Source: Nautilus pompilius (Eukaryota; Mollusca; Cephalopoda; Nautilida; Nautilidae). Taken from it: a stretch of 64,000 nt of DNA. Made by a program: the position numbers and the translations under genes. The notes under the pieces are model-generated. The model made no database searches. It had not been told where the DNA came from and saw only the letters and a program-made list of their open reading frames with translations. Positions within the stretch are counted from its first letter, which is position 1; every line of letters begins with the position of its first letter. The stretch is from NCBI GenBank assembly GCA_018389105.1, contig JACATO010000684.1:1320140-1384139 (forward strand). The letters are read 5' to 3'. This document shows positions 30,986 to 63,837 of this stretch, in pieces.

Positions 30986-30991
30986 TTTATT
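30986..30991 (-). terminator. Candidate polyadenylation signal of the globin
   Basis: TTTATT on the plus strand is AATAAA for the minus-strand globin, about 290 bases after its stop codon. Other A-rich signals nearby are possible. Confidence 0.35.
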
Positions 30992-31280: not shown

Positions 31281-31469
31281 TTATTTTGTGTAGCTGATGC
31301 ACTCTCCAAGAAGATTGCAGGCTCTGTGTCTCTTGCTAGCATTGCACATTCCATTGATCATCTGGGCACACATGTAAGAATAAATTTTTTTCCATGCTGC
31401 TTCTACCTCTCTTGTGTAATTTTCCTCCAGCAACATGCGCAAGCCAAAATTCATTGAGGGCCAAAGTCT
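31281..31469 (-). CDS. Globin exon 3 (helices G-H and C-terminal tail)
   Basis: Acceptor CTCTTGCAG, then RLWPSMNFGLRMLLEENYTR, EVEAAWKKIYSYMCAQMING and the tail MCNASKRHRACNLLGECISY-TK, stop TAA. Spacing from the F-helix to the H-helix Trp equals neuroglobin, so no exon is missing. The tail beyond helix H has three cysteines. Confidence 0.92.
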   Translation of the reverse strand, partial: RLWPSMNFGLRMLLEENYTREVEAAWKKIYSYMCAQMINGMCNASKRHRACNLLGECISYTK

Positions 31470-34400
31470 CTGCAAGAGAAGAGAAGACAAACAACTCTTG
31501 GCTGGAACTTTTTCTTTTTGCATCCATGTCTTTAATGTAATTTATGCACAGAGTACTGCCAGAAAAAATGAACACAGCTGAAGCATAAATAATTTTTATT
31601 GTAGATTGTATGTATGCTAAAGAGTCATACAAAATAGCAGGAAAGAAGAAATTATATCTAGTATTTTCAGACACATAGCAAAGACGGAATGGGAGTTTGT
31701 CTGATAACATGGTCAAAATTTTGCCAAAAGTCAGTCAATTTTTCTTTCAGATCTGTTATAAATGTGGAAGGAGGTCTTGTTTTTTTTTTTTTTTATAGGT
31801 TGGCAATCAGTGTTTCCAAAAGCATTCAATTACTTTCATGTTAGGGGCTCTTAGGTGTCCAGGAAGGGACCTGCAGCCGCTGAGTGGTGGTTTTAGAGAT
31901 GTCTTAGAATCTTTGCAGAAAGTGTCTTGAACTGAAAAACCCTTTGTTGAAAAATTGGCCTAAGATTATTATCAAGAATCGATGTCAGCAGAATTTAAAC
32001 ATCACTTGGTGAACACCAGGCCAGTCATCCCAATGTCCAAAATCAGTACCCACATCACTATATTAAAACCACCGTGTTGAGCTGGGGGCTGCAAGCTGCT
32101 CTTCTGAAATGCTTGAGTCACCTTTCTCCCATCTATGTTCATCCATTTGATATGAAATGACAGAGAACAAAACAGATGTCCAAAATGCCACAGGTCTGTG
32201 TATTATTTCCTTGGCCCATGCAAATCTGCACTTTACACTGGCTTCAGTAAGCTGATGTTTTTGCAGAGTGACCTGTCTGTTGTAGACCACTTTATGCTAA
32301 TAACTTAGACCTGTATGTCATGACACATTTACAGTATTGATGATGTCTGCAGCATGAATTCAGCCCCATCTGGAAAACAAGGGCTCTTTTAGTTTGTTCT
32401 CTAATCACAGATGGCCATCCTGATCAATGATTGGCTACTTTTTATATACCTGACAAAAATGCATGTTATTCACTGACCCATTTGTGAGTCAGAGAATTCT
32501 GCCCTATCTGTCTCTCACTCTGACCACAATCTGATTGTCTATTCATTGGGCAATTTCATGTGATTGGTGACATATCATATGCACCAACTGTACAAGGGAT
32601 CTTTTACATTTTTCCAGCTCTACTTTCTCATGTTACATGCTATTTATAGCATTGAGCGCACAGCCTATTGGGAAACATGGGTTGTGCCATTATTTTCACG
32701 AGTGTTTATTTTATTCTGGCAGGGCTCTGTATATATATATATGAAAACATTAACTATTTTCTTTCTACTTTTATGTATATATTTTAGAAAATTTGTTCTT
32801 ATTTTGCTAACTCTTTATTAGCAAAACATCGGTAACTTTTCATTTTAATGAATAGTGAATGTGAATACTACACTGCCTTCCAAAAGTAAAGCAATAAAAA
32901 ATAAATAGAAATGTTTCCAAAAGGTTGAGATTTTATTCACCAGCACAAAGTCATCTTTATGGAAGACAACCTTTATCAAAGAAATTTGTAAACTACAAAT
33001 GTATTTTAGAAGTGTAAAGGAAAGCAAGCAAAAGACAAAATCAGGAAACAAGAAGAAATTGTAACATAAACATGCAAACACACATGAACCGAGGTAGTGG
33101 TTAAATACTAAAGATGCACTGATATAATTCCATTCAGTAGTGAAACTATCTAAATAACTTGGCATAAAATTAATACTTAGAATTACCACAATTTTCGATT
33201 TAAGAAAATAATATAAACTAATGAGCGATTACTTATTTATAAACACATCGTTGTTTAGGGCGCCCTGAAGCCTGGCGGTAGGACTACTAGACAAGGCGTC
33301 GGTTCGACTCCCGTTCCGGAGGGTAGTGTTGGCTCATTATCGTTTCTTCTCGGTCTTTACCAGCCGGTCGTATGAGTTTCTTCCCACATCTAAAACTAAA
33401 AAGTTCTATCAGAGATTTTTCTCGGAAGTGGCGCAGAATAGGTAACGCTCTCTATCGGATAAATGCGGCACTACGCTCCCTCGCCAGAGTTATCTCCAAT
33501 GCAGAGAATTTATCTCCACTGTAAAAATTAATGTCCGTCTTAAAAGTGAACTGATGAAACACCAGATTTATTGTTAACTGGAATTTAAGTTATATCGTTT
33601 ATTGAAATAAGTTTGTAAGAAATCATATTTAAATTATAATAAACATAATGCTAAAAACAAGAAAGAAAGTCTGTTTTACTTTAGAAGAATAGTACTACAC
33701 AATGGCATCTATTTATTTAATTATTAGTGCGCGGATGTGCATATTTATTCATTTAGTTTAAGTAAAATACTGTACATGCTTTGAATAATTATTCTTTGAA
33801 TACAGAAGGGGCCAATAATAACCAATGCAAAAATATCCAGAACTATAAGTAGTTAGAGAGAGAGAGAGTTACACTCCATGAACAGTGTCGATTTCTTACC
33901 TTACTTGTATCCCTTGGGATATAATATATAGTCAAATATGGTCATGATTCAAAACACGTGGGGTGGGAGCAATATACGAATTTATCATAATGGGATAATT
34001 AATGAGGGAAAGGGTACCATGTTTCACTACTGACCATGTGGCTCAATCTGAGTAACAGGTGTGAAGGATAATATATGCATATCATCGAATTGGCCGAGAA
34101 ACAAAGTTTTAATACCTGGTTCAACCATTTTTTTTTTTTATTATTATTTTAATGCTCAGACCAGTTTTTCTTCTTCACTGAAGCAACCCGGCGCCATTAA
34201 TTTAGACGTTGGTAAGGTTACTGAAGGAATCACGACGCCGATGTAGCCGGCCCCAGACGGCAGCCACTAGATGCCACGTTAACAAAGTCGTTAATGGCAA
34301 TAAACGGCCTACAAACCATCCCGGAAGAGGTGTGAGTAACACGCACATTAAAAAAAAAATCTATTTATAGGAGTTTCTCTTAGTTGCCTCACTATTTCCT

Positions 34401-34990
34401 GCAATCAATAATCGTCTTTAATTTGTTCGTTAAGTCCAGATGTATTCGATGAGCAACGACTTAGCTACAGCGGCAGTTCTTGTAGACAGTCCACGGCACC
34501 ACAGCCTCGATTGGAGCTGAAACGGAACGGAACTGACCACCACTAGACAACCAGCGAACAACCGGAAGTCAGCTGTTTCCGCTGCTTAGAATTTACTCCG
34601 TCTGCCCCCCAGCATTGGTCAGGGCTGAACTAGTAACCGAAGTCAAACTATATAACTTTAAGAACAGTAACCGCTCCATATATATATGGTAGTCCGGTGC
34701 GATACCTCAGAAAATGGTCTGACTTTTGAATATATGTGAGTGAGTTCTTTCTGCTGCTATCTAGTGGTATGCATCACTGACTCGTTCTCAAGGTTCCCTC
34801 CTTGCAAAAGACAATTAGCAGTCGCAGCTAACAGAGGAGAAGGAAACAAACCCCGTTTCGGTTCCTTAAATATAGGAATTCTTGCTAAGTAGGTTGCAAG
34901 GAGACATTACTCAAGACAAAAACTATGAATCAAGTATAAGTTCTTATAACGTAAGCATAATCGGAGAGGTTGGACCGCATCATTATTAAT

Positions 34991-35066
<76 letters not shown>

Positions 35067-36937
35067 AACTTAAATTACTGTTCCACTATTTTGTATATGA
35101 ACAAGTAATTAATCGTCAACAACTGGTAGAAGAGATTTTTGGACGAAAGATCCCCTGATCAGCCGGATGTCGTTGAGCGGTGTCGTCAGCTTATCTAACA
35201 CCGCCAGGTCCTCTCGTGACATCACCAGTCAGCTTCTTCCCATGGAGCTGCCCGATACGATATCAGCAAGCTGCGCGCCTGCTCCAGTCAATAGGCGTGA
35301 AAACGCGTAAAGCAGAAACCGTGACTGAACTAAGTGGCTGCCGGTTTCAGTTCCAAACATCTTTCTTAAACTTCTTGCTGATAATTTGAACTGGGTGTAA
35401 GGTATCGACGTTGGGTCAGGTCTGCTGCATTCCGCTGTTCCTCTGCAAGTGCTTATTGCGTTGATATTGATGTTTATTTTTAAAATCTTTATCTGTCGTG
35501 TTGTACTAGTTACAGAGCGGACAACACGGCAAGTGTCATTTGAAAACCTCTACTTCTCTTTCTTTCTTTCTTTCAGAGAAAGAGAACAAATATTACAACA
35601 ACAGAAAACAACGGATATTATTAATGCCTTAAAACTTTTTATTATTTTTTTTTTTTGTTGTTGCAGCAAAGCTCGAGGAAGGAAACCGAAGAAAATGCTT
35701 ACAAACAAGTTTGTGTTGTTGTTAGAGAGAATGGAGCCAAACCGGACGCGGGAGACTAAAGGAGAACAGTTTAGAAAATCAAGATTTCGCATGGATTTAA
35801 CAGACGAACATGGTGCAAAGCGGGTAAAAATCTGGATATCGTGCTTCTGCGTAAAATCAGATCACGACGGCACGACATGGAAAAAAATGATGTCTGTCCA
35901 CACCGTGATGCAACTACCGCCACGACATGGAAAAAAATGATGTCTGTCCACACCGTGATGCAACTACCGCCACGACATGGAAAAGTGATGACTATTCCCA
36001 CCGCGGTGCAGCTAGCGCCATAAGTCCCCAATCCGGAATCTTTTTTTTTTTCTTTTTCATCACCATCCTTCTGCATCCACAGCAACTTTATAACTGCATA
36101 TAATAACACGCTTATAATATTCACCTGGGCGATTGCAAATAGTGAGATATCCTATTGAAAATGGTCGCCCCGGGGTAGATTCCCGCAGGATGTTGACAGT
36201 TTATGCGCGGACATAATCTTCTCAAATTACCCCGAATAGCCCGGATCGAACAGCTTTCAGTTGAAGTCGCCCCTGACTATTGACCAAGGATGTCAGGAAC
36301 GACCATCTCTCCAAGATTGGCTTCTTGTTCATTTGTTGTTGTTTTTTTTTTGGTTTTTTTAACACAAAAGAAATCCTCTCTTTCAAAAGGGAGAGGTTAT
36401 CGCCTCCCCTGATTGGTCCCGGAGCGAGAAGTATCAATGGCTACTTGGTGGACGTTACCAATCCGGAATATAGGCTGATGAATTCTCTTGGTAGCTACCA
36501 ATGAAGTATCGCATCCGACAATGACTTTTTATATTTGGCATTTTTAAGGCTGACCAATTACTCTTCTTGGTCCACTCAGATTTTATTTTTATATCGGATT
36601 TGTTTTTTTCTTTTTTATCATTATTATCTTTTTACTCGTATAACTTATTCAGAAAGAAAATCCTCAATAATGGATTCAGTTACTCTATTTCTCCATCATT
36701 TGCTCCAGTTTAAGACCAAAATTTTAGAAACAATGAATGGGCTGAAGAAAGATCGTTTGTGATGAGATAGTGGATGTGCTCCGGGTGTTAGGCTTAATAG
36801 CGCTTTCTCCGATCTCATGCCACTTTTTTTTTCCTTCTTCTTTTCACAATTTTAATAACTTTCGTTAAACGTAATTAACGGACGATGATTTGTTTAGATA
36901 TTGATTTATTTGTTTAAACAAAAAGAGGACTCAGTGC

Positions 36938-37013
<76 letters not shown>

Positions 37014-37082
37014 GTTATTACACAGAGAGAGAGGGATGACGTTATTACAGAGAGAGAGGAGAGAGAGAGAGATGACGTTATT

Positions 37083-37120
<38 letters not shown>

Positions 37121-37177
37121 TGACGTTATTACACAGAGAGAGAGGGATGACGTTATTACAGAGAGAGATGACGTTAT

Positions 37178-37225
<48 letters not shown>

Positions 37226-37309
37226 GTCATTACAGAGAAAGATGACGTTAATACAGAGAGAGATTACGTTAATACAGAGAGAGATGACGTCATTACAGAG
37301 AGATGACGT

Positions 37310-37365
<56 letters not shown>

Positions 37366-40300
37366 TTATGGCTTGTATTTATCTAACCAGTTAATCACAA
37401 TTTTTGTTTGTTTGTTTGTTTGACATTAGTGGACCAGTTATCTTCTTTGGTTTCTGCTCGTGTTATCATCCATACGTTAACCCTATTAGCATTTGTGTTC
37501 TAAAGGCCTTCGTTTACTGCTATCTGATTTTTTCTTTCCAATTAACACACACACACACACTTTGCAGAGATGAAAATTGGTAAGAATCTCAAGACGCTCC
37601 GAGCGTTAGAGACGGGTGACTGAAGCGAACCTGTTGCAGATAATTCCAGGGTTCTGCGGGAGGTAGAAAAGATTAAACTAAAAGATAACGGCGAGGGGCT
37701 GCTGGTTAGCGGAATAGGAATCCATCACATTGTTTCATGCGGTTCATTAGCTTAATAGCGACGGGGTCCCTCCGAGGGGCAGGGGCTTAGATGTTTTTTC
37801 CCTAGCCCTTCCCCCACCAACACAGCTGCAGCACACTTCAGAGCGAGTGAGAGAGGAGACCTTATCTCCACCCACTGCAGGCAGATTCGATTCACTCGCT
37901 GTTAACGTTTTTTTGACGAGCGGAATGTGAAGTAAATAGGCAAAAACATCCGACTCTTCTGCGGTGATCTGACCAATCCGGATGGTTCTCCGACGCCTGG
38001 AGGTCAGGGGAGGGGGAACTGGAGATAGCGTTTGGAGCCGGGCATGATAAAGCACATCCGCGCAGGCGACATAAAGAGAGCTGGTTGCCGGTGTCCCTCC
38101 CGCCAAGATCTGTACTCAACCAAATTCACTGCGCTGTCCACGAAAAATCAACAGGAATATTCTGTCTACAAAGAAATTCGCATTGTTGGCGTTGATGAAG
38201 TGACAGAGAGCGCTAGGCGGCGCACCTTGGAGCCTCTCTTCTAGCCAGTATTACCACGCCCGACCAGTTATCGCTGCGAAAATCAGTCAGGTCAAAGGTC
38301 AGTCTCTGAAGTGAAGGAGAGAATAATTGTAAATACTAGCTGCCCCCCCCCCTCATTACGTATCAACATCCGGCAAAAAATGGTAAAATAAAAATAAATA
38401 AATAGGTGAATTTTCTGCCAGGACTATTGTAAAGAAAAAAGAAAACAACAAATAGTGAAGTGGAACTATATTCCAAAGGTGCACGTATTTTTTGACACGC
38501 AAATGCTCCTCGCGTTCTTGTAAAAGTGTAATAAATATAACGCTTACTTAAAACATTTTGTTTTCAGTTAAATCACGAATGGAAGACGAAATTGTATATG
38601 CAGTATATTTATTCTTCTTCTCAATATAAACAGTACCCGAGCAGATTTTCCAGCGCCCGACGCTATAAGGGCCCCCCCCCCGGCGCGCATGCGCTGATGC
38701 TGCTACATCGTTTGTATTTTTTCTCGGCACGAGGAAACACCGACGAAGTAACGGAGATGGCGAATGGTATCCAGGATAGCAAACAAAAGCGAGAAAAGCC
38801 GTCCACTATGAGGCGCGTATTCGCTCGGATGGAACAAGAACGAATGGCCAGCTAACGGAAATCATTGCAGACAGTTGTTCTAGCGCGACGCCGATTCGCT
38901 CCGACGAACGAATAGATTCGAAAGATTCTAGAATCCGGTTCGGCTGAAGAATGGCCGCCCACGCATCGCGTGCGGACGGACGCGGGGACAGTAAATCAGG
39001 CGTGAAATGCTCGTAACCTGGCGGTGTTCGGAGACAAGGCGAATAATGCTGGCGGCGTGTCCCCCCAATTAACTGCAAGGGACAGGAAAAGGCGATAGTT
39101 CCACTTGTTCGGCCGAGATATCGGTTGGCACTGCCAGATCGCGGAGAAGGGCTGGCCGAAAGCGAACCCGGAGAGCTGAACAACAAGAAGGGCTCGCGGA
39201 GGACTTCGTTCGGGTGTTGCCTGATGAGCCCGCGCTGTGGCCAGCAGCAGGCTTGACCGACTCGTCGAAAGAGAGGTCCCAAGTAAACACTGGATGTTCA
39301 GTTTCCACAGGATAACGGTGCATTCTCACGAAGAACGCTTTGAGGAGGAGAGGGAGCTGCTACATCCCACCTGCAAACAACTGGGACAGATTTCTGCGAC
39401 CATTGATTCTGTACTAGAAGGCTTCAAAGCGTGGAAGTGCATTTTTGTCTACGGTCAAATGGTGGACATTGATCGCTAGCAAGAAGACTACTGACTAAAA
39501 GGGTTCGTCTCGCCGAGCATTAGTGGGCTACACTATGAATGGTGAATGGTCGGCCGGTGCCTCGATTTCGCGACATTTTAATGGCTCGAGAACTCGGCAG
39601 TCAATATTGGCGGCAGTAGAGGATGAGAGTCACGACAGTGGGAGCGATGTGAAGCGACACACAGTGATAGGCACTAGCGAAGAGTCAGCCTGAATTTGGT
39701 CGTTCTTGATGCTGCTAAGTTGTCGGTGCTGTCCGGTTTGTACAGCGCATTTCCATTATCTCGAGGTTGGTCTATACTCATGTACTGATCTCTTCAGGCC
39801 CCCGTCTCTGGCGTGTGTCCTGCTGTATGGAACGACGTTAGTTTTCTGGGGGGGTTTCCAAATAAATCGCCTGCGCAAGCTGCTTCTAGGCCCTAACAAA
39901 GCGACGGATGCCCTTAATAATGAAATCCATTCAGTGCTCAAGCAATTCGCAAGGCAAGATAAGCTTTCCTGAAAAGAGAAGCCGAGGAGAACGCTTGAGG
40001 ATGAGTCTCGCCAAGAGTCCCGAGAAGGGATTTAGGCGAGATGAGGACGAGGACAGCCGCGGAGGGGAGTAATTGGCGGACGGTGGAGACTTCCCGACCC
40101 CGCCTGGCCAGGTGGCGCGACCGCTCCGCCAAGGGAGGGGTTATTTAATTCTCACGCAAACCTTCACACCGTCTCCCTGACTTGAGAAGAGACGTTTTCC
40201 CCGGTGTGGAGGTGAAATGAGGAGAGAGCCCCCCCCCTCGCCTTAGTCTTGGATCCCGCCCCACAAAAGCCTAGCATCGGGTTTGAATGCGCATCACTGT

Positions 40301-43241: not shown

Positions 43242-43294
<53 letters not shown>

Positions 43295-44895
43295 AGCGCG
43301 GTAACAGATGCAAAAAGAAAGTTTGATTAAGAAAGGTTCACTACTTTAAAACAAGTAAGATTAATGAATGCGAATTATCACCGGAATCGCTCTTTTTTTC
43401 ACACTTGCCTACCTGTCAGTCAACTTGTACAGAAGGAACAGAATTGCTGAAGGACAGACGGATAACTTATCAAATCTATTATAGAGAAACGGCTGACAGA
43501 TAACCCTCTAGACTTTGAGAGCAGTCACTAAATCAACGAAAGATCGATATATATATATATATATACGAATACGACGTCTGTCCAAAAAGAAGCTGAACTT
43601 TTTAAAAAAACAAATTGATTGTTTTACTTACAATTTAATCAGTCTTGCCTCCTTCAAAATAGTTTTCTCCACTGTTGATACATCACTCCCAACGTTTTTT
43701 TCCAGTTTTGGAATGTGTCCTGTAATGCGTTTTCAGGGATAGTGTGCAGTTCTTATAGCAAATTTTCTTCAATCTCTTCTTTTGTCTGAAATCAGTGACC
43801 TTTCAGGATGAATTTAAATTTTGGGAACAAAAAAAAAGCTCTGCAGGGGCCAAATCCAGAGAGTAGGGCAGCTGAGGGACGAGAGTCGTCTCGTGCTTTG
43901 CCAAAAAGTCATGGATAAGGAGTGACGCGTGAGCAGGTGCGTTGGCGTGGTGCAGCATCCAGGTTTTGATTTTCCATGCCTCGGGCCTCCTCCTCCACAC
44001 TGCCTCAGGACATCCAAGTAAAACTCTTTATTGATCATCTGACCACGTGGAACAAACTCGTGATGAACGACGCCCTTCCAATCAAAAAAGACTATCAACA
44101 TCACCTTCACCTTTGAGCGACTCTGACGTGCTTTTTTTGGTCGCGGCGACGATGATCCAACCCACTGCGACAACTGCCTTTTTGTTTCGATACCGTAGCC
44201 GTACACCCACATTTCATCGCCTGTTATGACACTTTTTAGAAAGCTTTCATCAGCATTCGAACGATCAAAGAGATCCTGACTGACTGTGACTCGGTTCTCT
44301 TTTTGTTCATCTGTCAGCAGATGCAGCACAAATTCTGTGGCTACACGATGCATGTTCAATTTTCCTTTTAAAATCATGTGGCATGAACTTTCACAGATGC
44401 CTACTTCTCCAGAAACTCCATGGACAATCAGGTGACGATTTCCACGGATCACAGCATGCACTTTCTCAATGTGATCGTCGTCCGTTGTCGTGGAAGGTCG
44501 TCCAGATCTGGGATCGTCTTCGGTGGATGTTCTTCCCGATCTGAAACGCTGGTACCACTCGTGACATTGCGTACGGCTCAAACAATCCTCCCTATAGGCC
44601 TGTTGAAGCATTAGAAAATTCTCCGTAAAAGTTTTTCCCAATCTGAAACAGAATTTCACACAAACACGTCGCTCTTCAAGATCCTTCATTGTTCAACTTG
44701 CGGCAAATCGCCGAGTGCACTAAGCATACATTCACCCTAGCACTTGTAGATCGATGACTAACTGACGTGGCATGATGAGGCTATTATTAGACTGAAGGTC
44801 AAGGTCACCGATACACAGCATTGCAGTCGCGAGCACGCTGCGTCGGCTAGTTGGCGCGCTATTTTAAAAGTTCAATTTCTTTTTAGACAGACCTC

Positions 44896-44959
<64 letters not shown>

Positions 44960-47900: not shown

Positions 47901-50900
47901 GTCGACAACAGAAACGGTTAAAGGAAAAAAACAACTGAACTGTATTCTTCAAAAGGTGGTGTCAGGTACCCGAGGCTGTGATAGACAGCGAGCCGGTAGC
48001 GATCTTGTGGATGGCCCGACTGCCAGTATGAGTGTCAAAGAACGGTAAGATATACATCAACACGAAGTGCTCTCGGTGGATGATAGCTTAACGAAAATCT
48101 TCACCGAGAAGAGGCAACCAAATGACAGGGCTGGAATGGACAGCAGAAATGAATCAGTGGGGGGGGGTGTGAGTCCAACTTTGAATTGTTTGGCGATGCT
48201 CAACGGTAGTTTGTCCGAATGCCGGACGTCGGAGCAGGAGCAGGATAACAGTCAGTGAACAACAGCCGCAGTGAAGCAGCATGAAGGAGCTGCATATCAA
48301 AAAAAGTGTGTCAGAGATTTGCATAAAATCACAGGTACAAGCAAGCTTTCATCTATTGATGCCATTCCTTGAGGAAGACATCTCGTCTGTCGAGGATCCG
48401 TCTTCCAACATGACAATAACACTCAAGAACACGGTCAGTGTGGTGAAAAACGTAAGGAGGCTGATGGAACACTCACAGAGATGCCTTGGCCTTCGCAGTG
48501 TCCTGATATGAACGCCATTGACGCTATACGGAGTTATAAGGCTACTGAGAACGTCAAATGACAACCAAACACCTTGGATGGATTGGGAATAGTTATATGG
48601 GATATTTGGAACACCATTCCACAGTCATACATCGATAACCTGCATGGGAACACGAAAAAAGGTGACAGCTCTTTATCAGGGGCTCATATACCACGTCCTA
48701 ATGTGCTGCACAATGTATTCATTTTGAGTTTTGCATATTTTCTGTAATAATGCATTGTGTATGCATTGCATACGTCACTCAGTTGCAATTGCTGATTATT
48801 TGTGCCTATTTTGTGTGTGTTTCCATAATTATCTTTAATGCTGTATGCGCCGTTAGAATTGTTTGAATTAGTGTCCGCTACGGATGCACTGTCTGTCAAA
48901 CAAGCAGCCAGCCGCGTGGTCAGGACTGACACAAGAGTTCGGGATAAAGAGCGATAATCCCGTATAAAACTGTGAGTGACGTCACACCTCTCTTTGCGCT
49001 ACAATAATTCTACGCCCTTCCACTTTGTGGCCTTAAGTTCGACTTTCCCAAAAGTTAAAGAATTTTCCCTTTTTTTTAAAGTTTGGCAAAGCTGTCTACG
49101 TCAGATGCCAAGACTCGTTTTCATTTGGATCGGATGTCTGCAGTTAACCAGCAGCTTTCATGTCTGACCCCGCTAATATCCGGTGCTGTTACTCCTTTTT
49201 TTGCCCCATAATAACTTTCCAGGCTCATCCGACTGACGATGCGGCATTTCTACAATACTTTAACTTCTGTAAATTTAAAAATAAAAACAGAATAAAAGAG
49301 CTTTTTATTTTCTGTTTATTATCCTGCAATAGTGACCTCTCTACCTTTTTCTTGTACAGGTAAATTTTAATTCCAATTTTCTTATCCTGCAAAGATTTTT
49401 TCTCATTTCCTTAAACATTGTCGAATTCCTCTGGAATGCAACTTACTGGGCTCCCTAATGCCCGTCCTCGGTACACGGGATAAACAAGCTGTCCCTAGCC
49501 TAATTATGTCCCAACAAAATCATCGATGTCATCAGGGGTTTACCGCGCGGATTCATTGGGTTACAAAGACTAGGATTGTAATCCAGCTGGGAGTGAGTTA
49601 AAGAGGTTATGAAATCTCTGAATAAACAGTGGCTGGTACGATACTATCCACCTGAGCGTTGACGGACAGTCTGTCTGCTGGCGGTAACTAACTTGTTGGT
49701 TTATGAAAGGATGTATGTACTGATTTAGTTTTTTGTTTTTTTTTTTGTTTTTCCATAAAATCCTAGAAATTCGTAGTGAAAGATGATGTGCAGTAGTCCA
49801 GTGGTTAGCCTACTAGACTGCCAAGGTCACGTCCTCAGATTTGATTTCCGCATGAGACAAACTCGGTTCGGCGTACTTCCTAGGCACGGTTTCCTCTCGA
49901 TTTTCTTCACCAGCCAGCCAGCTACACGGGGTTTATCCTGCGAGAGGTCTCCGATTTTCTTCCGCATCTAAAAAATAAAGATTACTAGTAGGGGAAGTCG
50001 GAACAGCGCACAATTGGTAACGCGCTTCCTAGCGGTAAGCCGCAAAATTACGCTCCGTCACCAGAGTTTCCTCCCTTAAACACATCGGTGTGAGAAGTTT
50101 AAAAAGTCAGAAAAGTGGCAATTGTAGGTAATAAGTTAAAACAGTTGAACAGAACTACAGATGTTGCTCTTTTTTGCATGCTGTAGCCTGTGACACGATA
50201 GTCAGATATGTAGTTGAGCAGCAGTAAGGAAAGTATGGTATCGTCCCCTCCCCAAGAGTTATCTACTACAGCCGGCGATTTGATGATATCATATATGAAC
50301 AGAAGAAACGCACGTTTATTGTGCCATCTAACGTCATATCCGCAGTGATGTAATCTCCTTAACGCAATTATCGCCTGTTATTCGCTGACTGAGAACCAGT
50401 GTTCTGTAGATGAAATTAGCCACTCTGTCTGACTAGAACTTTCAATCAATCTCTTTTCGGTGCCATCAGATTGGAAAATTGCTAACATTTCACCTTTTTC
50501 AAGAAAGGTAACAAAAGTGATCGGACCAGTTAGCTTAACAAGCGCGGTAGGCAAAATGTTAGAATTAATTATCCGAGATAAACCTTTTGATTATATAGAA
50601 TAGAAAAACGTGTTGAAGCATTCATGGGGTTCAAAGGGGCTCTGTTCTACAAATCGCTTTGACTTTTGATGTCGATGGAGATAATGGGTTTGATTTCATC
50701 TACCTGGACTTTAGTGTGGCCTCGATATAATTCCTAATACACTTCTAATTCCAAAAATCAATGGCATAAAAATAAAACACTTTATTTTATTGTGAGGGGT
50801 AAAGAGAATGAGGTGTACTTCTGAACTCCGATTTCAAGTTCTCGAGCACTGAGCGTGGCATATTTTAAAAATCATTCTCAGAATCTGCGAAGGACTTGCC

Positions 50901-52514
50901 AGAAAATTTCAAGTGTTAGCCACACACACAGACACACACACACACACCACACACATCGCCGATTGATTAACAATGTTTGTTTTAAGAAAACATTAGTTAT
51001 TAATATTTATCAAAGGAATTCATGCAAAACTGGAATGAAAAAAGGCATTCCCACACTAAAAAAAAAAACATATACTCGATCAAATTCCATTAGACTTTTC
51101 TCCAGACTGCTGCCATCAATCTGTTTTCCGTTTCTTGGTGTTATTATGTTATTTGTTTTGTCATATATCTGTTTCTTTCAATTCTGTTTTTATTTATTTC
51201 TTATCCATTAATTCGAGCGGCTAAACAGAATTCCCAGATTTATATTCCGACATGACATCAGTAACCACACCGTTTTCCCAGATGTCTGCATTCCATTATG
51301 GTCGAGTTTTTTTTGGCTATGAAAACTTTCAGCCACTACAGCCATTACAATGGGAAGACGAAGTATGTATATATAACTACCACTGTTATAAATTTCTTAG
51401 TCTTTTTCGAGACAAGTATTTAATAAAATAGGTGAAACATTGATATTAACAGACGTTAGGAGAGCACTAGTGCTGACTGCTGCCCAGATCCACTTCCTGC
51501 AGCAGTTCATGCAGATTGAATAAGATGCTGTGTTCTAGCGCAACATTCGTGTAGCTGCGCAGTTCACTATAACTTCCTTTTTAGATGTGGGAAGAAGCTG
51601 GACAGTGTCCAGAGGAAGTCCAAACCCTCAGCTAGTGAAGATCAACGAGAAGAAACCGTGTCAGGGAAGTACGCCAAACCGAGCAGACCCGACCGGGATT
51701 CGAACTTGGGTCCGCGTCCTAATGGAACATTTAAAAGTTAAAAACTTCATAATCTGTCTCAAACACAGCATTAAACAAGTCAACCGATTGGTTACTTGCA
51801 TCTGCCACAGCAGTAAACAAGAGAAGCCATTGGTTGCTAAAGTTTCGTTTGCAAGGCTGTCTAATTTATTGTTATGATGAGATTAGATAATTTGAAATAA
51901 GAATTTAAAAAAAAAACAGAGTAATCTGAAGACGTATGATTACCTTAGACATTTATGAAGCTTTTTTTTCAAGGCAATTTGAAATATTAACGAAAAGGAT
52001 GCTTTACTCTTGAACACTCTTTGATTTTCAAATGTAGTTTTCTTACCCAGTTGTTATTTTTAAAAGTTTTTACAATTTCGATCAAATTATCATAATATCA
52101 AATGATCAGTTTAATTCATAACTTAAAGCTAAACGTTGTATTTATTTAACCTTTCAGTTATTAATCTCGAGAAAACTTACCATCAACAATAACCTTTGTC
52201 AATTACATAATTTTAGACTTTTAAGCAGAACATCAGTAATGAATTTGAATATATAAAATAAATCATTTAAAATTAAAAGTGAAAAGGGTATTCCGACAAA
52301 TTCCGTAGAATTAATCCTAATTTTGTAAACTACATTCAGGTATGTTATATCGTAGCGGTGACAAATTGTATTATGGAAACACAGGTGATCATTTCTTTTG
52401 AAGAAGCACGTGTGCTCTACCTGATTATTCTGCTTCATTTGAAAGACACTCATTCTGGTTATCTAAATTCGTTTGAGAACTAAGATTAAAAATAATTGCA
52501 AAGCAGCAGCAGCA

Positions 52515-52552
<38 letters not shown>

Positions 52553-53069
52553 AAGCTACTTCTCTGTCCTTCTAGTTTCTCTTTAGATTGATGAGAGAGA
52601 GAGAGAGTTGACGTCATTACAGAGAGAGATGACGTCAGTACAGAGAGAGAGTTGACGTCATTACAGAGAGAGAGATGACGTCAGTACAGAGAGAGAGAGA
52701 TGACGTCAGTACAGAGAGAGTTGACGTCATTACAGAGAGAGAGAGAGATAGAGAGAGAGAGAGTTGACGTCATTACAGAGAGAGAGATGACGTCAGTACA
52801 GAGAGAGAGATGACGTCACTACAGAGAGAGTTGACGTCATTACAGAGAGAGAGAGATATAGAGAGAGTTGACGTCATTACAGAGAGAGAGAGATGACGTC
52901 AGTACAGAGAGAGGATATGACGTCAGTAGAAGTAGAGGTAGAGAGAGAGAGTTGACGTCATTACAGAGAGAGAGATGACGTCAGTACAGAGAGGATATGA
53001 CGTCAGTAGAGGTAGAGGTAGAGAGAGAGAGTTGACGTCATTACAGAGAGAGAGAGATGACGTCATTAC

Positions 53070-53127
<58 letters not shown>

Positions 53128-54205
53128 AGAGAATCTAGATTTTGAGTTGAGGCCCGACGTACATGACGAATATTTAAGAATAGCACATTATAGACAGGGA
53201 AACTGTGTACAGCATAAGCAGATGCCAATCTATAAACAAGACGTACTTTTCTCCTGTAGCAGGCGTTGAGTTCGAGGAATGGCTCTGGAGTTATGGTGGT
53301 AATCTGGCGCCACTTTTTATGTCTGGAAAAACTTTGTAATGGTAAAAGAAATTATACTTAACGGATCTAGAAATCAAACGCTCGTCCGAAATCGCGACGG
53401 CAGTGAAATTTCCATTCTGAAATGGTTGTATTTTAGGTCCTGTGATTTAAAACTTCTTTTCTTTATCAACGAAAAACCGGAGCAGGTTTTCTTTCTCTCT
53501 CCGATGGAAACCGCTTCAGTTAGGTGGACAAATATCACAGTCTTCTCGTAATTAACTCGGGATAACCACGTGAGTTTCGCTGAATCAGTGGTTTTATACT
53601 TCGTATTCGCGGTATGGAAGCGGGGCGCGTTACTCACCTTCAGCATGCTGGGCTTGACGCTTTTGTACGTGTGACTTTTCCCTATGTCGAAAAGGACCTG
53701 GCTGAGATGTTCGGAATCCTCCAGGCTCTCCACAGTAGCTCTAAGCCCGCCCATCACCGTCATGGCGTGCTTCTGCAGCATTTCTGTGTCGGTGTCATAC
53801 TCCAGCTGGTTATTATCGTTTATCAGGACAATTTTCGGAAACAGCATCTTCAGATCTTTCTCTTTTTCGAAAAACCTGTAGAATCGGGAAGAAAAAAAAA
53901 AAAGAAGGCAAAGAGAGAGAGGTCGGCTATTATATCTTTCTAAGGCCGTGAGGATAGACGGCTCATCGAACGGGTACTTGGTTCCTTACTTCTTATAGCT
54001 TAAGCTCACATCACTGCCAACGAAATGATATCGTAGCCTTTGTATTATTTGTGATATTAGAAACTTCCGGGCGTAAATGGGTTAGTGTTAGGAAATATAA
54101 TTGGAAATGCACACATGGAAATTTGGAAATTTGCAGGTGTGGGATTTGTTACTGCAGCTCAACTAAGCTGAAATATCTGACTATGCTTTTTTTTTCTAAA
54201 CTGCG

Positions 54206-54250
<45 letters not shown>

Positions 54251-57143
54251 TTATTTATTTATTTTTTTTTAAGAATTTACCTAGGCTTTTTCCAAACGAC
54301 TCTTTTAAACTGTTTTTAAAGAAACGTTTCGAGGACCTCTCAGCGTCAGAATCAGCTCTTTAAAATACCGTTTGTGTGAATACACATACGAGGTTAACGT
54401 TCGCTTTTCTTTGCCTGTCGGCCGTGCGAGTTTCCTCCCACCTCTTAAAAAAATACGAAGGTGCCCGGGCTGGAAGCGTCGGAGTAACTCTTGGTGCAAC
54501 TCTTGAGGAGAAATGAACTCTCCACAGTTGGAAAATACATTACAATTACTTACGAGTGGTTTGGACCACGGCGTTGCTAATCGGTCGATATTGTTAATTA
54601 TACTTCCGTTCCGACTATAATTTGCATTTCTGAGTCCCCGAGTGAGAGTAGAAAAAATAGACTTCAAGGGGCCACAACGAACTCCCAGCCAAGGTGCACG
54701 AGTTTGACGTATAATAAGTAGTTGCGATCTCTTCAACAAGGGAGCTATGGCCAAGACGTGTTTACAATTATCGAAATTTTAAATACATAGAGAGGAAGAG
54801 AGGGAGAGAGTTATGCCACCTTTCGACGTTTAATTCTTCTAACTACCTGGTCGTTTGTCGCTATTATTCCAGTTTTTTTTTTTCCTGGTAAATAATCAAA
54901 CACGCTCCGAAAATTTCGGTTGAGTCTCCATAAGCTTTCCGCTCATATCGAACACCACTTTGTCCGCCAGGCTTTGGTAGTTTGACCATAAATACTTCTC
55001 AACCGCTTCTCAAGAATAACTGAAATCGGGTTCAGAAAGCAGGATTAATTTCACTAGGATTCCCATGATATGATTAAGTGAAATCGAGCTTTTCATCATT
55101 GCATTATATACAGAATTATTAAAAATTACCTTACAAACGTATATTACATAATAAGCAAAATTAAACTCAATCAAATACACCATTTGGTGCGGATATACCT
55201 TTTTGGTGCTGATTCAGGTAAATTACGTCAAAACAAATGAATAATTTCCTGAATATATATAAATTTTAAATAAATAAGAGCAAAAATGCATTTTGAATAC
55301 AACAATAAATTCAATATTTTTTTTTCATTTTCCGCAGATTAAAATTCCCAGATGAATGAAAAACATGACGTCATTATTACTAGAATTGTCTGTCTATCTC
55401 TTGGTCTTGTAACACATGGATTTCTTCTGACTTTGAATTTCTAAGTGACAACAGAACTTGCTCATTAACTTCCACTGGTACAGATGATGGGTTGATGACG
55501 TATGAAATTGTGTACATTACTTTTTATTAAAAGCTTGGAACGTCACATACCACCGACGTACTCCCCGTTCCGATTACAACAGCCACGGTACTTTTGCTTT
55601 AAGAAGGTTAATCTTTCTGTTATCGACTTTAACAAGGGCTCTGTGTAAACTGATGCTCAGGATAACGTCCGTGGGCTCTTCCAATAATCGGAGACGACCG
55701 TCTCAAGTAACCTCTACCGAGATCACACTGACCACGGTGTCAAATAGATCGCGCGGCCATATATAATAAGATGGTAAATCTCTTCCAATCGGGTAAGAAT
55801 GACGTGGCTTCAGGTTTTCATTCGCATTGGTATTTTAAATCGCAAAATAAAAAACAGGAAATAAACAGAGCTGGTGACTTAAACACAAGTATCAAGAATT
55901 CTTGTACTTTTTTTTTTGAGAATTCATTGCCATTTTTTCTGGCGAGGGAATTCAAGCAAACGGTTATCTGAAGAAACTGGTCGAGAACAGAAACCTCCAG
56001 GTTCATCGTGTACAGCCGTTCTAAATGGGAAAGCGTCGTACATCCCGACCTGAAGGGGTCTTTTTTTAAATATATAAACCAAAGCTAAAATAACAACAAA
56101 AGTTGAAACTAAAAACATTGTGTACAATAATATCAATGTCTTAAGGTAAAGCTGAAGGCCACGTTCCGGCGAGTTCTGCGCTTCTACTTCGCCCATCTTG
56201 GATATCTGTTCTTCTTCCTTTTCCTCTTTGTCTATGCGCATCTATAATTTTGATTTTTTTGTCGGATCATAACACTGCTTTCTTTCTCTTAGCTAGGAAA
56301 ATATATTTTATATATTGTGCTTTTATTCAAATGCAGGCAAATTATCCATAAAATATGCGAACATATTCTGAATGCCTCGTGTAGACAGAGTGGTCAGAAG
56401 TAAATAGAGACCTCGACGAGTAAATCAAAGTAAGCCCCATTCACCTTCATCCACCTGCTCTATAGGTAAGTTTATTCCATGTGTAATGCAAGGAGCGGAT
56501 GGACGGTATGACAGAGTTAGTTTGCGCAAAGGGTGGTTATGGCAATAAACTGCTTCTTTTACAGATAGGGAGTCTGTGTACCTTTTAAAAGTATCTGTAT
56601 ATCCTCTTCCTGAACCGATATCGGTGTAGATGTCTTTTGTAAGACGTATTAGTACTTCTCCATTATAAAAAGCCATTGCCTAAAGTTTCCAGAGAAAGTC
56701 GCCAATGCCATTAAACATGGATTATTAATCAGATTTAATGGAGATTAAATTAAAAGTAAATGATAGCATTTATAAAGTTTTACATCTTAGATTTTTAGAT
56801 TTTTCTCTCTGAACAAAGATTCCTTTTTGGAAAGTCTGAACACGAAGTAATTGACAGGAAGAGAAATAAATACAAGACTAATGATGTGGTTTGTTAGTCA
56901 GAAAAGTTTAATGAGATATTCTGTCACGATTTTCATACTTTCCATCATCTTGTAAACACGGGGTGGGGGAGAGAGAGAGAGAGGACTGACTTACTGTTTA
57001 AATATCATCACGCCCAGGATGGAGAGGTCGTCTTTTAAAAGAATCCACGTCTTTTGAATCAATCTGATTTGATTGTTGTTAAGGTACGTGATCAACTGTT
57101 CCCTGCCCGGCGATCGAAAGCCACACCCACCGCCGTTACCCAT
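31281..57143 (-). CDS. Membrane-anchored neuroglobin/globin-X-like globin, complete, three exons
   Basis: Exons 57143-56995, 53875-53638 and 31469-31281 join in phase (2, then 0) to 191 residues. Globin landmarks align by spacing with neuroglobin: A-helix Trp (IQKTW), B10 Phe, CD1 Phe (KMLF), distal E7 His (MLQKH), 32 residues to proximal F8 His (GKSH), VKP after it, and the H-helix Trp (EVEAAW) 33 residues from that V. Introns fall at B12.2 and G7.0, the ancestral animal globin positions; there is no central E intron. The first ATG follows an in-frame TAA at about 57204-57206 and has a G at -3 and +4. The protein begins MGNGGGC, fitting N-myristoylation at Gly2 and palmitoylation at Cys7 as in globin X. 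It has a Cys-rich 17-18 residue tail (MCNASKRHRACNLLGECISY). Likely roles are redox or nitrite chemistry or O2 sensing at membranes; this is inference. Confidence 0.94.
31590..32500 (-). mobile_element. Degenerate Tc1-like transposon relic (copy 3)
   Basis: At the 3' end of globin intron 2. Minus-strand readings: VKCRFAWAKEIIHRPVAFW, TSVLFSVISYQMDEHRWEKG (the VLFSDES block with the Asp lost), FGHWDDWPGVHQ, FNKGFF, then LPGHLRAPNMKVIECFW (WPxxSPDLNVIEHxW block) and STFITDLKEKLTDFWQ. Several stops and shifts. No terminal repeats found. Confidence 0.7.
33257..33550 (+). mobile_element. tRNA-derived SINE copy, full head and tail
   Basis: Perfect RNA polymerase III B box GGTTCGACTCC at 33301-33311 with a tRNA-like region before it, then the block CCCACATCTAAAA near 33385 and the tail block ACGCTCCCTCGCCAGAGTT at 33473-33491. 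These blocks recur in the other SINE copies of the window. Confidence 0.8.
34986..35064. repeat. (ATT)n microsatellite
   Basis: About 25 ATT units with one single-base phase break (TATTATATTATT), in globin intron 2. A similar (ATT)n tract is at 54208-54250. Confidence 0.95.
35871..36021. repeat. Three tandem 50-bp repeats
   Basis: Starts CACGACATGG at 35871, 35921 and 35971. Copies one and two are identical through GATGCAACTACCGC; the third is diverged and CpG-richer (CCACCGCGGTGCAGCTAGCG). No gene assigned. Confidence 0.93.
36930..37363. repeat. (GA)n array with TGACGTTA/TGACGTCA motifs
   Basis: (GA)n tracts interrupted about eleven times by GATGACGT(T/C)ATTACAG-type units: mostly TGACGTTA, with three perfect TGACGTCA near the right end (about 37220-37310) and variants such as GTTAATAC. 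In globin intron 2. It generates false open frames rich in Arg/Glu or Ser/Leu. Confidence 0.95.
37560..42350. other. CpG-rich stretch in globin intron 2, unexplained
   Basis: GC- and CpG-rich DNA, most marked at about 38640-40150 and 41940-42310, with several ATGs and open frames up to 160 codons on overlapping strands. None has a consistent coding signal or a family I recognise. It includes one SINE (41170-41560). It could be a CpG island with unannotated promoter(s) or a GC-rich old repeat. Confidence 0.5.
41170..41560 (+). mobile_element. tRNA-derived SINE copy
   Basis: B-box-like GAGTTCGATTCC at about 41203-41214, central body, and tail block ACGCTCCCTCACCAGAGTT at 41424-41442, followed by ACATCGGTGT and a 3' part ending GATGTTGCTCTTT. 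The same 3' part is found in the copy at 49783-50185. Confidence 0.8.
43241..43294. repeat. (CT)n microsatellite
   Basis: CT dinucleotide tract with one CCT interruption, in globin intron 2. Confidence 0.95.
43572..44896 (-). mobile_element. Mariner element with terminal inverted repeats, 1325 bp
   Basis: TA duplications at 43570-43571 and 44897-44898. The left end CGACGTCTGTCCAAAAAGAA pairs with the inverse of the right end, CGAGGTCTGTCTAAAAAGAA, for about 31 bp. It lies in globin intron 2, inserted between a (TA)n tract and a (GT)n tract. The terminal repeats differ from those of the 5007-6296 copy, so this is a separate mariner lineage. Confidence 0.95.
43620..44689 (-). pseudogene. Mariner transposase, one frameshift and a lost catalytic Asp
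   Basis: ATG at 44689 begins MKDLEERRVCVKFCFRLGKT and is open for about 230 codons through the two HTH domains (CLSRTQCHEWYQRFRSGR) and the first catalytic Asp (VITGDEMWVYGYG). Near 44000 the reading moves by one base into RRRPEAWKIKTWMLHHANAP. There the second catalytic position reads HHANAPAH instead of HHDNAPAH (GCC for GAC), then PYSLDLAP (third Asp kept). The C-terminal part continues with stops (FQTKEEIEENLL, ENALQDTFQNW). It is inactive both by shift and by the Asp-to-Ala change. Confidence 0.93.
44899..44958. repeat. (GT)n microsatellite
   Basis: About 28 GT units with one GTGG interruption, directly abutting the right end of the mariner at 43572-44896. Confidence 0.95.
45005..45990 (-). 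mobile_element. Degenerate Tc1-like transposon relic (copy 4)
   Basis: Minus-strand pieces: ANDLAASTGV, VSPRYTLT, SGLSGCVAGRKPLLRGDNQM, TRLQ, WDDRTWQMVV, SGFELFVNNKKQSVQMW (FSDESxFELF block), SQCTAAIVKHD, TTGILIADRYKQVFFYHAIP, and IPQSYIDNLYRDV-like near 45120. This is the standard Tc1 order from HTH to C-terminus, with several stops and shifts. Clearly different from copies 1-3; related to copy 5. Confidence 0.85.
46793..46970 (-). mobile_element. tRNA-derived SINE copy, inverted
   Basis: On the minus strand: GTGGTAGACCAGTGGACTGT, B-box-like GGATCGAATCCCGG (about 46899-46912), then GTTTCCTCCCATATCTAAAA at the 46793 end. Head and middle block only; the tail is absent. Confidence 0.75.
47730..48720 (+). 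mobile_element. Degenerate Tc1-like transposon relic (copy 5)
   Basis: Plus-strand pieces: RGCDRQRAGSDLVDGPTASM, GSVFQHDNN (second catalytic Asp block), EMPWPSQCPDMNAIDAIRSY (third catalytic block) and WNTIPQSYIDNLHGNTKKG (C-terminus). Order and spacing fit a Tc1 transposase of about 340 residues; many stops. Opposite orientation to copy 4, 1.7 kb away. Confidence 0.8.
49783..50185 (+). mobile_element. tRNA-derived SINE copy
   Basis: tRNA-like head AGTCCAGTGGTTAGCCTACT, decayed B box (AGATTTGATTTCC), CCGCATCTAAAA block at about 49961, tail ACGCTCCGTCACCAGAGTT at 50050-50068, then ACATCGGTGTGAG and GATGTTGCTCTTT. Along the whole tail it matches the copy at 41170. Confidence 0.8.
50425..50740 (+). 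mobile_element. CR1/jockey-like LINE reverse transcriptase fragment
   Basis: Reads VPSDWKIANISPF, then after small shifts GPVSLTSAVGKMLELIIRDK and DGDNGFDFIYLDFSVAS. This is the N-terminal RT segment VPxDWKxANIxPxFKKG..PVSLTSxxGKxLExII..DVIYLDFSKAFD of CR1-type elements, with the AFD damaged. Only about 300 bases are recognisable. Confidence 0.75.
51583..51740 (-). mobile_element. tRNA-derived SINE copy, inverted
   Basis: On the minus strand: AAGTTCGAATCCCGGTCGGG (B box), CTTCCCTGACACGGTTTCTT and CTTCTTCCCACATCTAAAA. Head and middle block only, ending at the same CATCTAAAA boundary as the copy at 46793. Confidence 0.75.
52512..53135. repeat. (GA)n array with about 18 perfect TGACGTCA (CRE) motifs
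   Basis: Between 52608 and 53065 I count 18 TGACGTCA octamers separated by 10-35 bases of GAGAGA, in two alternating units, GTTGACGTCATTACAG and GATGACGTCAGTACAG, plus ATATGACGTCAGTAGA. The array starts after a (GCA)n/(GA)n tract and one inverted copy of the repeat seen at 61364-61575. It ends in (GA)n about 0.5 kb downstream of globin exon 2. Confidence 0.96.
53638..53875 (-). CDS. Globin exon 2 (helices B end to F, haem-binding histidines)
   Basis: Acceptor TTCTACAG, completing Q, then FFEKEKDLKMLFPKIVLIND, NNQLEYDTDTEMLQKHAMTV, MGGLRATVESLEDSEHLSQV and LFDIGKSHTYKSVKPSMLK before donor GTGAGT (phase 0, G7.0). CD1 Phe, distal His (QKH) and proximal His (KSH) are present, so haem binding, probably six-coordinate as in neuroglobins, is expected. 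Two extra residues lie between CD1 and E7 compared with human neuroglobin. Confidence 0.95.
54208..54270. repeat. (ATT)n microsatellite and T-rich end
   Basis: About 14 ATT units followed by TTTATTTATTTATTTTTTTTTT, in globin intron 1. Confidence 0.9.
54408..54500 (+). mobile_element. SINE middle fragment
   Basis: In globin intron 1: TTTGCCTGTCGGCCGTGCGA, GTTTCCTCCCACCTCTTAAA and the following block resemble the SINE centre (compare CGTATGAGTTTCTTCCCACA at about 33369). Short and decayed. Confidence 0.5.
55924..56241 (-). CDS. Hypothetical 105-codon frame with one membrane helix
   Basis: ATG-started frame MRIDKEEKEEEQISKMGEVE, with a strongly hydrophobic segment LILLYTMFLVSTFVVILALV (about residues 37-56), then positively charged FKKRP and a polar tail. 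It lies in globin intron 1 on the same strand as the globin. No family recognised. The charged N-terminus, single helix and basic stop-transfer look protein-like, but length alone does not exclude chance. Confidence 0.25.
   Translation of the reverse strand: MRIDKEEKEEEQISKMGEVEAQNSPERGLQLYLKTLILLYTMFLVSTFVVILALVYIFKKRPLQVGMYDAFPFRTAVHDEPGGFCSRPVSSDNRLLEFPRQKKWQ
56425..56676 (-). CDS. Hypothetical 83-codon frame
   Basis: ATG-started frame MAFYNGEVLIRLTKDIYTDI, ending QVDEGEWGLL, stop. It lies 180 bases upstream of the membrane-helix frame at 56241-55924 and on the same strand, also within globin intron 1. No family recognised; it could be a relic of an inserted element or chance. Confidence 0.2.
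   Translation of the reverse strand: MAFYNGEVLIRLTKDIYTDIGSGRGYTDTFKRYTDSLSVKEAVYCHNHPLRKLTLSYRPSAPCITHGINLPIEQVDEGEWGLL
56995..57143 (-). CDS. Globin exon 1 (lipid-anchor motif, helices A and B)
   Basis: MGNGGGCGFRSPGREQLITY then LNNNQIRLIQKTWILLKDDL and SILGVMIFK, with Q split at donor GTAAGT (phase 2, position B12.2). Gly2 with a small residue at position 6 fits the myristoylation rule; Cys7 is a palmitoylation candidate. The open frame extends upstream only through GTG codons to a TAA stop. Confidence 0.92.
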
Positions 57144-61799: not shown

Positions 61800-63837
61800 C
61801 TGTAAAAAGAAAAGCGCGGGTGAGGGAACAGCGTCTGGCGATTTGACCGGGTAGATGCCACGGGCCCTCCCAGTATAATACCTTTCAAGTCACACTTCTG
61901 TCAGCTGCTCCAGATTTACTTTCTCTTGGATGGATATAGTTACATCATGTATATTAGTATATGGCTGTCATCACAACACGTATTTTTTTGGAGTTGTGAT
62001 CGATAAAGTCTTCTTTTCATTCTCTTTTTCGCATATTGATTGGATAGCCTATGATCTTGACGGTTAGTGTACGCTGGCTGGCATATCTGCTGTTTTCCAA
62101 AAAGCAAAAGCTATTCCTATAAAGCAGTACAGTATAATATTGACGAAAACCAGCCTGGTTATATACGCGCCGTGTAAGCCGTTGTTGATTATCAAGCTAA
62201 ATTATGTCTTACACGAATGAAGCGAGCTGTTCGAGTGTATCGACAGAAACAGAGCTCACCGGCCAACATCCGTCTGAAGGCAGTGAAAAATCTCTCTCTC
62301 CCTCTCTCCAAGTTATTTTACAATATAATGAAAAGACCAATGCAATACCTTGCTATATTACGTAGTTATTCGCCGTATAAACGATAAGATCATAGCAGCT
62401 AGAAATGTATTTATCATTTATTTCCTCCCCCCGGAATTTTCATCGCCTAGTCTTGAATAAGTGCACACACACACACGAGCACACACACAACACACACAAC
62501 ACACACACACACACAACACACACACACACACACGAGCACACACACACACGAGCACACACACACGCGCACACACACACACACACATACACATACACACACA
62601 CGAGCACACACACACACACACGAGCACACGCACGCACACACACACACGCGAGCACACACACACGCGCACACACACACACGCACACACGCACACACACACA
62701 TACACATACACGCACACACACGCACGCACACGCACACACACATACACATACACACACACGCACACGCACACACACGCACACACACACACACACTGTGTCA
62801 GTAATTTATATGGAACTTCAATTTTCTATTCATCCCAAATGTGAGGGGGGGGATGACTTACCTCCCTTGTTAGCCAGTTCGCAGCCATTCTAGCGCAGGC
62901 CATATTCGAAATACTGTCGGATTTCCAGCTGTCAGAACGGCTGCACAGGCCACACTTCACTACTCTTTCTAATCTTCCGAAAGGCTCAAAAACCGTACTG
63001 TGACGGAGTCGGAGCTGTCGATATGAGAAAAAAAAAAGCGGTGATCTATGCTGAAACGGTGCGCACTTTAAATGTTTTCCTTTGTCCGTCCGTCCGTCAC
63101 GTGACCGAGTACCCAGTGTCGCTGGGCGGGGCTTGGCTGGGCAAACAGGCAGAACTCGAGGACCCGGTCAGGGGTCAACGCAAATTTTAACGTTCGGATT
63201 CTGGGCGCAAAGCATGAAGCAGTGGGTCACAGATGCAGCACCGTCCTGGCCAGTAGTGGAAATTCACTGAGTGGTGGTGGTATAAAAATACTGTACAGGC
63301 TTTAAAAAAAAATTTAAAAAAACGCCTATGCGCTATTATTAGGGTTTCATCTCGTGTAATTTTTTTTTTAGTTGGTTAAAGATGCGACGGAATGAAGAAC
63401 CCGCTTTTTGACTCTGAATGGGAACCGAATTTTCAAAAATGATGTGCATACTTCCCAAAGAACAGATGTACTGCGGCAAGGATTACCCATTAAACGGTAC
63501 TGTCTTCAGACGAGCGAATCAAGGGTCTTGTTAAGTCGGAGAGCTCTAACAAGCGGGCACCATGTTCGTTCAGTCCCGCTGACCAGAAAGAATCGCGCGC
63601 CGTCCGAACTCGTGGCATCATCGGTGATTTCGTTCATTTTGTCGCGATTGGCCGCTGTGATTTTTAGCTAAATTCTCATCACGCTCGGGCGCACAGCGAT
63701 AAACTTATGCCGAAAGGTGGTTAAGGACAATGTTTCGCGCTGTGTCGCGAACAGACCCAGCTCAGTGGACACCGCGGCAGAACGGCCAAACTGAGAACAC
63801 CCAGAGGGAGAAGACCGACCGTAAACATTAAATCGCC
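61800..63837. other. Gene-free stretch containing the (CA)n tract
   Basis: Apart from the (CA)n tract at 62462-62795 and short CT runs near 62290, no exon, transposon or RNA gene was recognised on either strand. Confidence 0.5.
62462..62795. repeat. (CA)n tract with ACGAGC and ACGCGC variants
   Basis: About 330 bases of CA repeats interrupted by CACACGAGCACACA, CACGCGCACA, CACATACACATACA and CACGCACGCACA in patchy higher-order order. Open frames here (His/Thr or Cys/Val) are artefacts. Confidence 0.97.

Follow-up and report, generated by a model that had tools for sequence, protein, structure and literature searches.

The gene studied here begins with the residues MGNGGGC, and the question it raises is whether this start marks a globin held at a membrane by lipid, and to which kind of animal globin such a protein would belong. 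The window, by which we mean the whole stretch of 64,000 nucleotides that was analyzed, carries the gene on its minus strand in three coding exons, whose splicing gives an open reading frame of 576 bases from the ATG at 57143 to the end of the TAA stop codon at 31281, encoding 191 residues. The coding part of exon 1 (57143-56995) contains the MGNGGGC start together with helix A and the greater part of helix B, and ends in phase 2 at position B12.2 with the donor GTAAGT. Exon 2 (53875-53638), bounded by a CAG acceptor and a GTGAGT donor in phase 0, runs from the end of helix B to G7 and holds the CD1, E7, E11 and F8 residues (Phe62, His86, Val90, and His118), while exon 3 (31469-31281), which also follows a CAG acceptor, provides the remainder of helix G, helix H, and a C-terminal tail with Cys171, Cys180, and Cys186 before the stop. 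The two introns measure 3.1 kb (53876-56994, position B12.2) and 22.2 kb (31470-53637, position G7.0), and pyrimidine-rich tracts precede both acceptors. In addition, an AATAAA hexamer resembling a polyadenylation signal lies on the same strand at 30986-30991, about 290 bases 3' of the stop.

The encoded protein matches the Pfam family Globin (PF00042) over residues 46-166 with an E-value of 2.2e-14 and a score of 54.4 bits against a cut-off of 22, and this is the sole Pfam family found at E ≤ 0.001. It thus shows the features by which members of the globin superfamily are recognized, namely the profile match, Phe at CD1 and His at F8. Exon 2 was also recovered independently, as locus L010, when the window's own genome was searched with PF00042, and a search by pattern for a rival third exon, run on the sequence that follows exon 2, returned one other string, a weak one, at 28081. 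The window gene is an intact three-exon animal globin gene, and the outer coordinates (31281 and 57143) and the 191-residue globin given in the preliminary description proved exact when compared with the spliced translation and the Pfam match. Its introns, in phases 2 and 0, occupy B12.2 and G7.0, two ancient globin positions; both are described as ancient globin introns, and together as the ancestral architecture of metazoan GbXL, in PMC7457136.

Any reading of the N-terminus depends on the start codon. An in-frame stop lies at 57203-57201, 19 codons upstream of the ATG, with no Met in between, which agrees with the earlier statement that this ATG is the first in frame after a stop. Met does not occur again until residue 46, within helix B, so exon 1 offers no alternative start that would yield a full globin. 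Sixteen acceptors of globin genes in this genome, including the two of the window gene, were used to build a small acceptor profile. Under leave-one-out scoring (n = 16) they reach 2.7 to 14.5 bits, whereas none of the 16 AG sites in the interval 57260-56995 exceeds -3.5 bits. Moreover, a pattern scan of the whole window for another first exon, encoding the A and B helices and ending in a phase-2 donor, returned two short strings besides exon 1. Neither approach therefore gave a convincing candidate within the window for a first exon lacking MG, the finding that the preliminary description had set against its own reading, and with no acceptor-like AG and no convincing rival exon the MGNGGGC exon is very likely the true first coding exon. 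The chance that the real first exon lies elsewhere, and that transcripts do not start with this exon, appears very slim to us. The contig that carries the window (G000:C660) stops 6.9 kb upstream of the ATG, where the window also ends, so that a more distant exon would escape view, and the start exon was placed from genomic sequence; however, the AGs around the ATG do not resemble acceptors, and exon 1 itself provides helices A and B in frame.

The MGNGGGC codons (57123-57143, minus strand) encode a Gly2 that, with Asn3, Gly4, Gly5, Gly6, and Cys7, fits the myristoylation pattern PROSITE PS00008, which is to be read as a motif match. This pattern is a loose one: among the 2219 ATG codons on both strands of the window, 82 precede Gly, and 16 of these 82 fit PS00008 at Gly2. 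Seven of the 16, the globin counted, also have a Cys within residues 3-10, which corresponds to about 0.3% of the ATGs. The myristoyltransferase favors a Ser6/Lys7 context, and since Gly6 and Cys7 differ from it, the myristoylation site may be weak. On the motif, myristoylation of Gly2 is plausible and Cys7 is a possible palmitoylation site. Of the dual lipid anchor predicted from this start earlier, the motif stands, with Gly2 fitting PS00008 and Cys7 close by, while the anchor itself amounts to a motif match.

The haem pocket could be read from alignments, which place Phe48 at B10 and bear out the haem contacts previously named, CD1 Phe, E7 His, and F8 His, at residues 62, 86, and 118; Val90 occupies E11. 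Neuroglobin, aligned alongside, has the same set of B10 Phe, E7 His, and E11 Val, which suggests a six-coordinate haem. Another globin of this genome, L004, has this set too. Besides Cys7, the protein has cysteines at 163, 171, 180, and 186. The last three are the tail cysteines already remarked upon in the preliminary description, and Cys163, in helix H by alignment, is a fourth toward this end. It is conceivable that the protein belongs to a spiralian lineage of globins anchored at both ends, in which the N-terminal myristate and palmitate would be joined by a Cys-rich basic tail (Cys163, 171, 180, 186, and SKRHR), either acylated or acting as a thiol switch, with the haem domain lying flat on the membrane and being released or re-oriented according to redox state; we consider this elaboration highly doubtful.

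The starts of other globins in the same genome were compared with this one. The search with PF00042 covered 727.6 Mb in 2558 contigs and found at least ten central globin exons, the window's included. Flank scans located the start exon of six of the ten loci; they found no start exon for L003, L005, L006, and L008, and no third exon for L002, L006, L008, and L009. Five of the six located starts can be Met-Gly, these being the window's MGNGGGC, MGCRNS in L004, MGLIWS in L001, MGALWS in L002, and MGCRSS in L009. In L002 and L009 another in-frame Met precedes this one, and the Met before Gly was picked by eye; in L001, L004, and the window gene no Met was seen in frame ahead of MG. A Cys occurs within the first seven residues in three of these five (window, L004, and L009). 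The sixth located start, MAASC, belongs to L007, a separate neuroglobin-like gene (9.2e-25 to PDB 1oj6). A Met-Gly start is therefore possible in globins of four different sequence types within this genome. Relatives were also sought in viral contigs, where 14 stretches fit a peptide pattern and none encodes a relative.

Regarding the placement of the window globin, a tree was inferred from 17 rows, ten globins of the same genome and seven from PDB; six of the former (L002, L003, L005, L006, L008, and L009) are incomplete, with unknown junction residues entered as X, and each PDB row covers the aligned part of a chain instead of its full length, with two rows heavily truncated. No named globin X, clade II, clade IV, or Sp-gb sequence is among the rows, and the class labels of some paralogues are ours: we take L003, L004, and L005 to be globin X-like, judging by the MGC with which L004 starts and by sequence motifs, and L006, L008, and L009 to be GbXL-like, judging by motifs of insect GbXL. 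The three globin X-like rows grouped together (support 95/96), as did the three GbXL-like rows with PDB 5ziq (89/93), L007 with two neuroglobins (99/98), and L001 and L002 with the nerve hemoglobin 8oup and the myoglobin 1dm1 (83/87). The entry 8oup, which we take to be a protein of the clam Spisula, was matched by L001 at 9.9e-26 with a query that contains one wrong junction residue; this match is part of the basis for regarding the source animal as mollusc-like. The window globin appeared as sister of the four GbXL-like rows (82/90, not firm), and its end branch, at 1.63, exceeds all others in the tree. When it was forced to group with other classes none of the placements was rejected, the p-AU values being 0.216 for globin X-like, 0.338 for neuroglobin, 0.41 for molluscan HbL, and 0.453 for cytoglobin, and for this reason the tree is unable to name its lineage.

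Pairwise identities over the core are low throughout. The window globin shares 33 of 143 positions with L004 (23%), 34 of 143 with L001 (24%), and 30 of 143 with L007 (21%), together with 27 of 103 with L002 and 27 of 104 with L009, so that its identity to the globins of its genome with an MG start ranges from 23 to 26%; to the three GbXL-like paralogues it is 25-28%. The highest value, 31% (43/137), was to the cytoglobin 6q6p, and the closest PDB matches by sequence were cytoglobins (best 4.2e-11), followed by neuroglobins (best 1.6e-6).

These results do not support the kinship with globin X that had been proposed on the basis of the N-terminus. The identity to L004, whose start is MGC as in globin X, is 33/143 vs 43/137 to the cytoglobin 6q6p, and the best tree keeps the window globin apart from L003-L005. 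Blank et al. (2011; PMC3176823) describe a dual-acylation start with Gly2 and Cys3 for every GbX they knew of, and in zebrafish globin X palmitoylation occurs on Cys3 (PMC3176823), whereas residue 3 of the window globin is Asn and its Cys is at position 7. No Cys occurs between residues 7 and 163, and the protein therefore lacks the CysC4-CysG14 pair of fish GbX; the gene is also without the E10.2 intron that arthropod GbX typically has as its third, the region from the end of helix B to G7 being contained in one exon. Neither absence discriminates within this genome, since the Cys pair is seemingly missing in L004 too and L003, L004, and L005 also lack the E10.2 intron. Zebrafish GbX, compared here by its description in PMC3176823, resembles the window globin in a Gly2 for myristate, a Cys nearby, and extended N- and C-termini, and differs in the position of that Cys and in the core Cys pair. 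Orthology with globin X proper (clade III), the dual anchor having moved from Cys3 to Cys7, would agree with a start of the dual-anchor type, with the pocket shared with L004, and with a grouping with L003-L005 at p-AU 0.216. However, the genome already has three globin X-like genes, one of which, L004 (G000:C660:1136856-1140062), has its exon 2 at C660:1138356-1138562 and a start exon ending near C660:1153365, and thus, with its MGC start, shares contig and strand with the window globin at a distance of about 0.2 Mb. Together with the low identity to L004 and the position in the best tree, this makes orthology decidedly unlikely, and we regard the link with globin X as weak.

A further alternative is a cytosolic globin of the cytoglobin/haemoglobin-like clade I that begins with MG by chance. 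Cytoglobin is cytosolic, and cytoglobins give the window globin its best PDB matches and its top identity, while groupings with CYGB or with molluscan HbL were not rejected; neuroglobin, which follows among the PDB matches, has the same pocket set. A start with Gly2 and Cys7 is not known as a feature of either cytoglobin or neuroglobin. The motif with a nearby Cys is rare among the ATGs of the window, MG is possible in most of the located globin starts, and even the HbL-like L001 and L002 can themselves begin MG..WS, which argues against a chance occurrence and leaves the clade I reading unlikely, if somewhat less so than globin X orthology. As an observation in its own right, the starts of L001 and L002, both on G000:C157 and haemoglobin-like, are of the myristoylation type without Cys; in the survey of Song et al. 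no member of clade I is predicted to carry a dual anchor (PMC7771090).

We consider it likely that the window globin belongs to another acylated bilaterian lineage, namely GbXL (clade II), clade IV, or the spiralian Sp-globins of Song et al. (2020), the latter two described in PMC7771090. Predicted acylated globins are numerous in the bilaterian clades II, III, IV, and Sp-gb (PMC7771090), and clades II, IV, and Sp-gb, rich in such globins by that account, are the ones at issue here. For GbXL (PMC7457136; PMC7771090), the likeness consists in the three-exon gene with introns at B12.2 and G7.0, a start of the myristoylation and palmitoylation type, and the nearest rows of the tree, a position that is not firm. 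The two-intron arrangement of GbXL is found in the window gene, as it is in many other globins, and the GbXL-like paralogues end exon 2 with F...FW, which the window globin lacks. The end branch, the longest in the tree, and the motif-based labels of L006, L008, and L009 also weigh against a firm assignment to GbXL. The window globin is similarly remote from the GbX-, Ngb-, and HbL-like paralogues (23, 21, and 24% for L004, L007, and L001), and at such a similar distance from the other classes clade IV or Sp-gb, known here by description as lineages with many predicted acylated globins (PMC7771090), would fit.

Acylated globins are well represented in published work. In zebrafish GbX, myristoylation is essential for membrane localization and palmitoylation is needed for full association, and a minor portion still localizes to the membrane when myristate is missing (PMC3176823). 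A putative myristoylation motif was described in 112 arthropod globins (PMC7457136), predicted myristoylation in eight globins of amphioxus (PMC3087553), and acylation in 6 of 19 globin genes of the annelid Platynereis. GLB-26 of Caenorhabditis elegans is a myristoylated and quickly oxidized membrane globin, for which a role in electron transfer was proposed (PMC3520999); this protein and the myristoylated membrane globin of Carcinus maenas (cited in PMC7457136) are likened to ours by description. A respiratory role was considered highly unlikely for zebrafish GbX, with lipid protection or signaling proposed instead (PMC3176823), and protection by GbX against ROS was reported by Koch and Burmester, as cited in PMC7457136. 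The earlier view that O2 transport is an unlikely task for a globin bound to the membrane thus matches the argument made for the zebrafish protein. Among the titles listed in our literature searches, none concerns a cephalopod acylated globin or the window gene, which is no proof of absence; PMC7771090 treats acylated globins and mentions cephalopods.

Considering this evidence, we assign a probability of roughly 70% to the reading of the window gene as an ordinary animal globin of the widespread acylated and membrane-anchored kind, attached to a membrane on its cytoplasmic side and active in redox reactions or in sensing a ligand. The acylated state is probably correct, as supported by the intact gene, the start context, the fit to PS00008 together with Cys7, the five of six starts that can be Met-Gly, and the published acylated globins. 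As a counter-weight, the myristoylation site is possibly weak and PS00008 a loose pattern, the identity to the MG-start globins of the same genome is 23-26%, and the top identity is to a cytosolic cytoglobin. We infer the acylations, the membrane location, the coordination state and the function as follows, the anchoring and the function by analogy with other acylated globins. The initiator Met would be removed and Gly2 myristoylated during translation, and Cys7 would probably be palmitoylated in a reversible manner, which would seat the protein at a membrane, facing the cytoplasm. The neuroglobin-like pocket of B10 Phe, E7 His, and E11 Val would bind haem, probably in six-coordinate form, and the protein would act on or sense ROS, NO/nitrite, or O2 rather than transport O2 in bulk.

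Membrane-anchored globins are already described and are common in animals, and the Met-Gly/Cys start of the window globin is accordingly an expected rather than a surprising feature. If the acylated reading is true, this gene would add one more lineage to the view of membrane anchoring as a common and possibly ancestral state of animal globins. Blank and Burmester, as conveyed by a citing paper, proposed that blood globins arose from membrane-bound ancestors; the window globin bears on this idea and does not by itself make it newly testable.

The remainder of the window was also surveyed. Scans for tRNA genes and Rfam families in the window gave no matches. A remnant of a mariner/Mos1-type transposase, with the Pfam domains HTH_48 and Transposase_1, lies within the second intron of the globin gene (43814-44692, minus strand), and a second remnant of this type, with HTH_48, lies at 5021-5719 on the plus strand. 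Besides, long microsatellite-like stretches, rich in GA or CA, extend over 36898-37394, 52923-53351, and 62396-62893, where several reading frames are open by chance.
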